A stretch of DNA of 64,000 nucleotides from Sulfurovum sp. XGS-02. GTDB taxonomy: Bacteria > Campylobacterota > Campylobacteria > Campylobacterales > Sulfurovaceae. Under the pieces are notes generated by a model that searched no databases, was not told the DNA's origin, and saw only the letters and a list, made by a program, of their open reading frames with translations. Positions 53,811 through 56,804 of the stretch are shown here, one piece after another (the first letter of the stretch is position 1; each line of letters starts with the position of its first letter). The stretch is from the NCBI RefSeq assembly GCF_023213175.1, contig NZ_CP093312.1:434001-498000 (forward strand), in the 5' to 3' direction. A program made the position numbers and the translations under genes.

Positions 53811-53927
53811 TAGTGGTGGGGCTAGAGGGAGGGTCATACCCAGCTCCATTCCGAACCTGGAAGTCAAGCCTCCCATCGCCGATAATACTGCAGGCTACGC
53901 TTGTGGAAATGTAGGTCGCTGCCACTT
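53811..53927 (+). rRNA. rrf: 5S ribosomal RNA
   Basis: Core segments GGTCATACCCAGCTCCATTCC and CCGAACCTGGAAGTCAAGCC are typical 5S; the terminal stem is AGTGG (53812-53816) with CCACT (53922-53926). Just upstream, AGAGAAA and TTTCTCT (53775-53811) form a hairpin that probably marks the processing site. Length about 117. Confidence 0.93.
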
Positions 53928-54116: not shown

Positions 54117-54160
54117 ATTAACCCTTTATTTACGCCCCATTAACTCCCATACCTTATAAT
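54117..54160 (+). promoter_or_regulatory. promoter of small RNA copy 1 with three 11-bp-phased boxes
   Basis: Three direct repeats start exactly 11 bp apart: ATTAACCC (54117), ATTTACGC (54128) and ATTAACTC (54139). The -10 TATAAT begins at 54155, 16 bp after the start of the last box, and no -35 hexamer is seen. Direct repeats with 11-bp period just upstream of a -10 are the usual operator form for OmpR/PhoB-type response regulators; the B. subtilis PhoP box (TTAACA-like) is similar in word and period. The regulator is not identified. Confidence 0.65.
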
Positions 54161-54166
54161 ACTTCT

Positions 54167-54310
54167 AGAAAGGTAACCATCTCCCTTTCCAAGAGATTAG
54201 TTTTACTCCTTGTCCAATATTTGTAATAACTTCCTTGTTCTCTTGGTCCCCGGTTATCTTTTTATAGAAGAGCCTATCCCTCCCGATATAACTCCCTTTC
54301 TTAGGCTCTT
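54167..54310 (+). ncRNA. candidate structured small RNA, copy 1
   Basis: Predicted from a -10 element and pairing. P1: AAAGGTAACC (54169-54178) with GGTTATCTTT (54252-54261). P2: CCAAGAGA (54189-54196) with TCTCTTGG (54239-54246). 3' hairpin: AAGAGCCTA (54268-54276) with TAGGCTCTT (54302-54310) around a 25-base C-rich loop containing TCCCTCCC and CTCCC. Single-stranded CTCCC also occurs between P1 and P2. The C-rich loops look like anti-Shine-Dalgarno sequences. No T run follows the last hairpin directly. About 65 percent of positions look shared with copy 2; this was judged by eye. Confidence 0.65.
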
Positions 54311-54427
54311 CGCAAATCATCTTTGTACTTTCTGCCTATATTACTTTTTTCTGTGCTTTTCACATTTTATTTTATATGCGTTGTCTCTTAAGTCTATATT
54401 ATAGAAAATAGTACATTTAAATATTGG

Positions 54428-54471
54428 ATTAACACTCTATTAACACGCCATTAACACACACTTTCTATAAT
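54428..54471 (+). promoter_or_regulatory. promoter of small RNA copy 2 with three 11-bp-phased boxes
   Basis: ATTAACAC occurs three times at 54428, 54439 and 54450, exactly 11 bp apart, and the -10 TATAAT starts at 54466, again 16 bp after the start of the last box. Box number, period and distance to the -10 are identical to copy 1 even though the spacers differ. Confidence 0.7.
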
Positions 54472-54476
54472 CATAT

Positions 54477-54616
54477 AGAAAGGTAACCGTCTCCTTTTTT
54501 CCAAGTGACGTGTTTTACTGCTTGTAAACTTCCTTATTTCTTGGAACTGGTTATCTTTTACTGAAGAGCCTTCACTCCTCCCTTCCAACTCCCTTTTTTA
54601 GGCTCTTCTGTTTTTT
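54477..54616 (+). ncRNA. candidate structured small RNA, copy 2
   Basis: Same architecture as copy 1. P1: AAAGGTAACC (54479-54488) with GGTTATCTTT (54549-54558). P2: TTCCAAG (54499-54505) with CTTGGAA (54540-54546), a different sequence from copy 1 but still paired, so pairing is conserved through changes in both arms. Terminator: GAAGAGCC with GGCTCTTC (54563-54608) followed by TTTTTT at 54611-54616, with a loop containing CTCCTCCC (54575-54582) that matches the 16S anti-Shine-Dalgarno core CCTCC. The RNA ends about 75 bp before argH and is separate from it. Confidence 0.7.
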
Positions 54617-56129: not shown

Positions 56130-56209
56130 AATGTTAAAAGCTAAACTTGTTGTGAAGCAAGGACAGAAAGTCATGGGTCTTTATGGTAAAGATCGCCAGA
56201 CCGCACATT
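56130..56209 (+). ncRNA. c-di-GMP-I (GEMM) riboswitch
   Basis: Closing stem P1 is AATGT (56130-56134) with ACATT (56205-56209). AGCTAAAC leads into hairpin CUUGUU-GUGA-AGCAAG (56146-56161), six pairs with a GNRA tetraloop, which GEMM aptamers use to dock. Then come GACAGAAAGTC, the typical ATGGGTCT, and GGTCT (56176-56180) paired with AGACC (56198-56202), with GGTAAAGATCGCC as probable tetraloop receptor side. The core word GCAAAG of many members reads AGAAAG here, so it is a slightly unusual member. An L,D-transpeptidase starts 85 bp downstream. Confidence 0.75.
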
Positions 56210-56294: not shown

Positions 56295-56804
56295 GTGAAG
56301 AAATATCTATTTTTTTATATCATCACCTCACTTTTACTTTTAGCAAATACTTCATCTTCATCGAAATTCAAGGGTCTCAAAGCAGATCTGGTTACAGTGG
56401 TAAAATCAAAAAGAAAGATGTACCTTTCATGTAAAGGCAAGATCTTAAAAAAATATGACATCGCTTTAGGTGGCAACCCTGTAGGGCATAAGAGAGTAAG
56501 AGGTGACCAAAAGACGCCTGAGGGAAAATATAAACTTGATTATTTCAAACCCAACAGTTCTTTTTATAAAGCTTTGCATATCTCGTACCCCAATAGAAGA
56601 GATCATCAAAATGCAAGGAGATTGGGTAAAAGTCCCGGAGGATCGATCATGATCCACGGACAACCCAATAACAGAGAAATCAAAAAGTCATTTTTCCAAC
56701 GCTATAATGACTGGACTGCAGGGTGTATCGCATTAGAAAATGATGAGATGGATGAAGTCTTACGTCTTGTGAATGTGGGAACCCCGATCCACATTAAACC
56801 TTGA
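56295..56804 (+). CDS. YkuD-type L,D-transpeptidase
   Basis: A 169-residue exported protein (signal peptide about 1-19) with the YkuD catalytic region: His121 in MIHGQPNN and the nucleophile Cys144 in NDWTAGCIAL. Such enzymes cross-link or trim peptidoglycan and in Helicobacter and Campylobacter relatives (Csd6/Pgp2) shape the cell. The start is GTG at 56295 with AAAGGA five bases before. The leader carries a c-di-GMP riboswitch, linking wall remodelling to the motile-sessile switch. Confidence 0.9.
   Translation: MKKYLFFYIITSLLLLANTSSSSKFKGLKADLVTVVKSKRKMYLSCKGKILKKYDIALGGNPVGHKRVRGDQKTPEGKYKLDYFKPNSSFYKALHISYPNRRDHQNARRLGKSPGGSIMIHGQPNNREIKKSFFQRYNDWTAGCIALENDEMDEVLRLVNVGTPIHIKP

Follow-up and report, generated by a model that had tools for sequence, protein, structure and literature searches.

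The window, that is, the whole 64,000-nucleotide stretch of Sulfurovum sp. XGS-02 analysed here, covers positions 434001-498000 of a genome that consists of a single 2.19-Mb contig. Between a 5S ribosomal RNA (rRNA) gene closing an rRNA operon (53812..53927, + strand, Rfam search) and argH, it carries two similar units on the + strand, copy 1 at about 54167-54311 and copy 2 at about 54479-54616. A sequence-only reading of the window had described them as a tandem pair of undescribed structured small RNAs (sRNAs), with a C-rich 3' loop resembling an anti-Shine-Dalgarno (anti-SD) element. Judged by sequence comparison, the units are members of a multicopy sRNA family restricted to Sulfurovum plus a close sister genus. 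They probably act in trans on the messenger RNAs (mRNAs) of a DUF3373 pore protein and an MSHA-type pilus operon.

Copy 1 is preceded by a putative operator, TTAACCCTTTATTTACGCCCCATTAAC, with three half-sites at 11-bp spacing (54118..54144; genome-wide triple-repeat scan and 46-unit alignment), and by the -10 element TATAAT (54155..54160; sequence and alignment), with a predicted start site near 54167-54169. Its outer stem, P1, is formed by AAAGGTAACC (54169..54178; fold and covariation over 22 distinct arm pairs) and GGTTATCTTT (54252..54261; sequence, fold, and covariation), the latter followed by further T. The inner stem, P2, is formed by CCAAGAGA (54189..54196) and TCTCTTGG (54239..54246), both from sequence and fold. 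In the core, block 1 (GTTTTACTCCTTGTCCAATAT, 54200..54220) is antisense to the DUF3373 leader, by loop conservation and complementarity, and block 2 (GTAATAACTTCCTTGTT, 54223..54239) is antisense, by complementarity, to the MSHA pilus operon leader. A 3' hairpin with a C-rich loop, GAAGAGCCTA..TAGGCTCTTC, completes the unit (54267..54311; sequence and fold).

Copy 2 has the operator TTAACACTCTATTAACACGCCATTAAC (54429..54455; triple-repeat scan), the -10 element TATAAT (54466..54471; sequence and alignment), and a first domain (54479..54558) in which P1 (AAAGGTAACC/GGTTATCTTT; 54479-54488, 54549-54558) and P2 (TTCCAAG/CTTGGAA; 54499-54505, 54540-54546) surround the core (54512..54539). It ends in a terminator-like hairpin, GAAGAGCCT..AGGCTCTTC, with the loop CACTCCTCCC and then TGTTTTTT (54563..54616); domain, stems, and hairpin were read from sequence and fold. 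Within 54169-54311 and 54479-54608, the P1 arms and (GA)AGAGCC..GGCTCTT(C) are common to both copies, and TATAAT sits 7-8 bases 5' of AAAGGTAACC in each. The sequence-only reading was right that both copies carry the 3' hairpin; the T tract after it (TGTTTTTT, 54609-54616) is present in copy 2 only. The first half of the copy 2 inner loop is degenerate (ACTGCTTGT; block 1 reads GTTTTACTGCTTGT), and block 2, GTAAACTTCCTTATTT, has an 11-nt match to the pilus leader. Because its block 1 is degenerate, the two copies are not equivalent.

The + strand of both copies folds better than shuffled sequence (z = -5.65 for copy 1 and -4.16 for copy 2; none of 200 shuffles equally good). With the shared words, this bears out the tandem pair of structured units. 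The - strand folds more weakly (z = -1.48 and -1.95); an RNA from that strand was rejected on this ground and because the conserved promoter lies on the other strand. Rfam 15 returned no family at the gathering threshold for the units in the window, at a second rRNA locus, and at 12 related loci, and no plausible match at a relaxed E <= 10 over the two units of the window. A literature search revealed no sRNA described for Sulfurovum. As far as Rfam and this literature search show, the family is undescribed, as had been proposed.

A blastn search with copy 1 hit six places in the genome. They form three pairs, and all three detected rRNA operons carry two units behind them in the same orientation. 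The two further pairs, at about 45 and 51 kb, belong to tandem operons about 6 kb apart, with two units behind each 5S gene (G000:C1:44000-53500, L007). In each of these two pairs, the leading unit has no 3' hairpin; its end is GGTTATCTTTTT. Chance is excluded, since such units are found again at the two other rRNA operons and across the genus. The placement between 5S and argH was correctly described, but the argH neighbour is incidental, since this site is only one of three rRNA-linked sites.

Homologues with covarying stems were found in related genomes. Blastn matches occurred in 21 of 60 related genomes, every one within the genus, and an exact-pattern scan of GTDB genomes gave 33 loci, whose records are without exception named Sulfurovum, Sulfurovaceae, Epsilonproteobacteria, or Campylobacterota/Campylobacterales. 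Since the stem-to-core spacing varies, a sequence-only model of the core (R1) was run over 399 genomes of the order. Matches at E < 1e-7 were confined to the genus, in which 25 of the 46 Sulfurovum genomes sampled matched at E <= 1e-4. A genome of a sister genus (G249) gave a weak variant match (E = 2.7e-5); beyond these two genera, R1 gave no convincing match in the 399 genomes. Mild matches outside the family (E ~1e-3) looked like chance on inspection of three of them (L108, L111, and L112).

Promoter and core are common to the two architectures in which the units occur. A class A unit is enclosed as a whole by an outer stem, AGAAAAGG..CCTTTT. A class B unit has a short 5' hairpin, GAAAGAG..CTCTTTC, and after it a long stem that holds the core. 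Class A units frequently follow 5S rRNA directly and in the same orientation, and two follow transfer RNA (tRNA) genes; no class B unit was seen beside rRNA.

Conserved pairing despite sequence change, claimed from the two copies alone, holds across the family. With P1 arms picked by hand at fixed positions, a choice that leans towards the structure, 22 distinct arm pairs placed 97.5% of cells in standard pairs, compared with 40-59% for slid controls. Both sides change in six of nine P1 pairs, and the covariation score was reached by none of 500 shuffles. The inner helix UUUUAC/GUAAA is UUUUGC/GCAAA in the sister genus, a compensatory change. RNAalifold found no pair. The inner loop, GUUUUACUCCUUGUCCAAAA..GUAAACUUCCUUGUUU, is nearly invariant, with 20 invariant columns in 34 sequences, part of which were chosen by a pattern that fixes the loop; its invariance is best read from the plain blastn set (L008-L035). 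Varying stems around a frozen loop are the pattern that should be expected of an antisense RNA. The anti-SD character proposed in the sequence-only reading stood up; its assignment to the C-rich 3' loop was not supported. That loop varies freely among copies and species, whereas the invariant inner loop complements conserved leaders, and the terminator loops of the two window copies were not seen to prefer either target. The inner loop, not the terminator loop, is likely the anti-SD element.

Alignment of 46 upstream regions on the -10 element revealed a conserved tTAAC-N6-TTTAC-N6-TTAAC. In the window copies, this triple repeat lies exactly ten bases before TATAAT. It is nearly private to the units: genome-wide, four of its five matches are these unit promoters, and the reversed control gave none. 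Repeat spacing of 11 bp is typical of OmpR/PhoB-family regulators, and the repeats are most likely the operator of a predicted OmpR-family response regulator. A Pho box, which would imply phosphate-starvation control, was rejected: promoters of the pst region carry different, TGTAACCAAAATGTTTCC-like boxes, and the units are therefore probably not part of the Pho regulon. Elsewhere (L266, G000:C1:425000-431500), a sox-like operon, named by inspection, follows response-regulator- and kinase-like open reading frames (ORFs). There, TTTACA direct repeats precede a -10-like TTATGAT, in the style of the sRNA operator yet different from it.

The gene downstream of the 51.6-kb unit encodes a protein of more than 500 amino acids with a DUF3373 domain (PF11853, E = 4.6e-104). 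DUF3373 was placed under family 1.B.62 in a survey of outer-membrane pore-forming proteins (PMC4827864). The leader of this gene reads GTTTTGGACAAACATAATTTAAAGGAGTAAACATG. At the gene start, UUUUGGACAA-N~12-AAGGAGUAAAAC is matched in two parts by the antisense first half of the loop, GUUUUACUCCUUGUCCAAAA, and about 12 nt of the mRNA would bulge out between the two runs. The pattern TTTGGACA-N5..24-AAGGAGT-N2..6-ATG had one match each in 15 of the 46 genus genomes and none in the control; each of these 15 matches falls at a DUF3373 gene start, a few hundred bases upstream of the domain match. Targets within the genome were ranked over 396 gene starts, taken from 20 stretches of 20 kb plus the window. 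The genome's own core forms 16 paired bases in two runs with the DUF3373 leader, against a maximum of 14 among the sampled starts, and 2000 shuffled cores reached at most 12. For the genus-consensus core, the values were 18 for DUF3373 and 17 for one other sampled start. Motif and sRNA are also absent together: in G142 (99% complete) and G011 (94%), no sRNA was detected and the DUF3373 leaders lack the GGAC motif, and in G034 both GUCCAAA of the sRNA and the leader motif are lost.

Within the genome, TTTTGGACAA followed by AAGGA within 30 bases occurs at two sites, the DUF3373 leader and 1,839,409. The latter is antisense and falls within another candidate sRNA (L122, G000:C1 ~1839300-1839560, - strand) with TTCACA-N5-TTCACA and TATACT upstream. 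This candidate has a stem GGTAACTTTT/AAAAGTTACC and a loop that could pair with 12 nt of the DUF3373 leader and again with AAAGGA. A GGA-presenting hairpin in the DUF3373 leader, as a CsrA site or kissing partner, was rejected: the leaders fold weakly, and GGA lies within a hairpin loop in 10 of 19, mostly in large unrelated loops. AACAAGGAAGT also stands at the start codon of further outer-membrane-like genes (L223, L224, L226, and L233), in genomes without a detected sRNA of this family.

A second conserved gene (1554483-1555985, - strand) has at its start AAACAAGGAAGTTTA, the complement of block 2, GUAAACUUCCUUGUUU. This gene is the first of an operon that holds MshL (TIGR02519, 253.3 bits against a cut-off of 250.2) and also encodes a T2SSE ATPase with an MshEN domain and a T2SSF protein. 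By these domains it is classed as an MSHA-type type IV pilus operon. Pairing between block 2 and the pilus leader usually covers 8-17 nt, the longest being 17 uninterrupted Watson-Crick pairs; it is 5 or fewer in a few genomes, e.g., G030 and G019. For block 2 of copy 1, the pilus-operon start ranks first of the 396 sampled starts. Copy 2 matches this leader over 11 nt, and so does the terminator loop of the 51.6-kb unit.

We propose that these units are genus-specific, trans-acting sRNAs under response-regulator control that repress the DUF3373 pore protein and the MSHA pilus operon, with a probability of about 0.66. An OmpR-family regulator would switch on several sRNAs, each transcribed from its own promoter with an 11-bp-spaced triple direct repeat. 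The resulting RNA of about 140 nt would display the nearly invariant loop upon covarying stems. In the cell, block 1 would pair directly with the ribosome-binding site of the DUF3373 mRNA, in two runs around the bulge of about 12 nt, and block 2 with that of the first pilus gene. Pairing over the SD sequence would block ribosome loading and repress both targets, and the cell surface would change when the regulator fires. More tentatively, the system may be a dedicated two-component regulon whose main output is the rRNA-linked sRNAs, with two antisense blocks per loop jointly silencing pore and pilus. If so, it would tie the sRNAs' regulator to the cell surface and attachment.

Several observations weigh against this proposal. 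The 3' hairpin of copy 1 stands without a T tract, and the genome holds 14 candidate OmpR-family regulators, none of which was singled out. By duplex energy, three of the 396 sampled starts are equal to or better than DUF3373, which is thus among the best only. G419 is a misfit, its sRNA keeping GUCCAAA and its DUF3373 leaders lacking the motif. The reverse, a leader motif without a detected sRNA, was found in four genomes. One of them, G029, speaks for the proposal, as its contig breaks inside an sRNA-like terminator directly upstream of the DUF3373 gene. The other three, G005, G421, and G424, are fragmented assemblies; a contig ends close upstream of the DUF3373 gene in G005 and G421, and in G424 the gene lies directly after 5S rRNA with no unit between. 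The pilus target is weaker than DUF3373 because its AACAAGGAAGTTTA-like leader is conserved also in genomes where no sRNA was found, and ordinary SD conservation could explain part of the match. Within one genome, several other starts share runs of 10-11 nt with the loops, so exclusivity is unproven and the targets may be numerous.

The strongest competitor takes the units for general anti-SD RNAs whose short CU-rich loops would silence many mRNAs of unrelated genes, DUF3373 and the pilus operon being only the most visible matches. UCCUUGU is indeed repeated several times per RNA in loops, and 11-nt matches occur at other starts, among them those of two genes named by inspection, one for a nitrate-transporter-like binding protein (AAGGAGTAAAA) and one for a glutamate dehydrogenase (AAGGAAGTTTA). 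We nevertheless consider it rather unlikely, as no SD complement covers the invariant GUCCAAAA half, which in the bipartite arrangement matches the DUF3373 leader only. The same repeats, which at times sit in small hairpins inside the terminator loop, could instead titrate a protein that recognises UCCUUGU, as CsrB-type RNAs do with CsrA. This is improbable: CsrA has a different consensus, GGA, and runs rich in GGA are confined to the weakly folding opposite strand; nor would titration explain why complementarity to two leaders is conserved.

In several genomes a unit directly precedes the DUF3373 gene, which would suit a cis-acting leader of the downstream gene, be it DUF3373 or argH. Such a role is very improbable for units that have their own promoter and terminator-like hairpin, precede unrelated genes, and also stand as tandem pairs; an antisense match to the leader is, moreover, a trans arrangement. 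Least probable of all is a functionless repeat spread along with rRNA operon duplication. Duplication does copy neighbours, and copies do lie behind rRNA operons, but it would not account for the compensatory stem changes, the invariant loop, and the operator conserved genus-wide, nor for class B units away from rRNA.

Vents and sediments commonly harbour Sulfurovum, a sulfur oxidiser. If the proposed antisense control is correct, a phylum in which sRNA work has centred on pathogens would gain an entire sRNA family, with its predicted targets and its kind of regulator both named. The rRNA- and tRNA-linked location is unusual. The window also carries two TPP riboswitches (Rfam RF00059; 26277-26403 and 30494-30607) about 4 kb apart, and a c-di-GMP-I riboswitch (56130-56208) directly downstream of argH. 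The ORF at 56295 after the latter is L,D-transpeptidase-like, a name given by inspection.

The sequence-only reading had compared the units with RepG of Helicobacter pylori and the cuckoo RNAs; C/U-richness is all they have in common, and no kinship was found. RepG acts on a G-repeat (PMC8295292). It is likewise a Campylobacterota sRNA whose C/U-rich loop binds G-rich mRNA leaders; however, it pairs through its terminator loop, whereas the conserved Sulfurovum site is the inner loop, and no G-repeat arrangement is present. Membership was rejected, as the Sulfurovum terminator loop varies by copy and species and the inner loop is invariant. MicF of E. coli is an OmpR-controlled sRNA that blocks an outer-membrane pore mRNA, and is single-copy and Hfq-dependent. 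Compared by description, it shares only the circuit logic of OmpR-family control over a pore mRNA, and its sequence differs. NmsRA and NmsRB of Neisseria meningitidis are tandem sibling sRNAs whose anti-SD motifs lie both in a loop and in a single-stranded region (PMC5362039). They resemble the Sulfurovum units as tandem, structurally similar sRNAs, but have three stem-loops, TCA-cycle targets, and no reported triple repeat, and no homology was found.

The proposed mechanism type is that of the csRNAs and LhrC. The streptococcal, CiaR-dependent csRNAs are similar, multicopy sRNAs with 11-bp-spaced direct repeats ten bases before the -10 element; their unpaired anti-SD stretch has been proposed to act on translation initiation (PMC3091779). 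The Sulfurovum units agree in all four respects: copy number, repeat spacing, distance to the -10 element, and unpaired anti-SD sequence. The csRNA repeat, however, is a two-copy NTTAAG-N5-TTTAAG, in contrast to TTAAC-N6-TTTAC-N6-TTAAC, and the csRNAs carry an anti-start-codon stretch, whereas the Sulfurovum consensus core has no CAU. Given the different repeat and this core, the csRNA family proper was rejected; the csRNAs, from Firmicutes, show no sequence or target similarity to the units. LhrC1-5 of Listeria monocytogenes are multicopy and LisR-dependent, and their CU-rich loop motifs bind the SD of a surface-protein mRNA (PMC4132741). A response regulator, here predicted, redundant CU-rich loop motifs, and the SD of a surface-protein mRNA as the putative target site are the points of likeness besides copy number; the UCCC motif, fold, and targets differ, and the bacteria are unrelated. 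Of the features of the csRNA/LhrC mechanism type, the Sulfurovum family has several copies per genome, unpaired sequence complementary to target SD sites, and near-private 11-bp direct repeats near the -10 element, at which regulator binding is predicted. By analogy, its mode of action would be that of csRNA/CiaR, LhrC/LisR, and NmsR, and by sequence or structure it is a member of none of them. If the units act as proposed, they would be a convergent case of the streptococcal and Listeria design, in which a response regulator drives multicopy anti-SD sRNAs.
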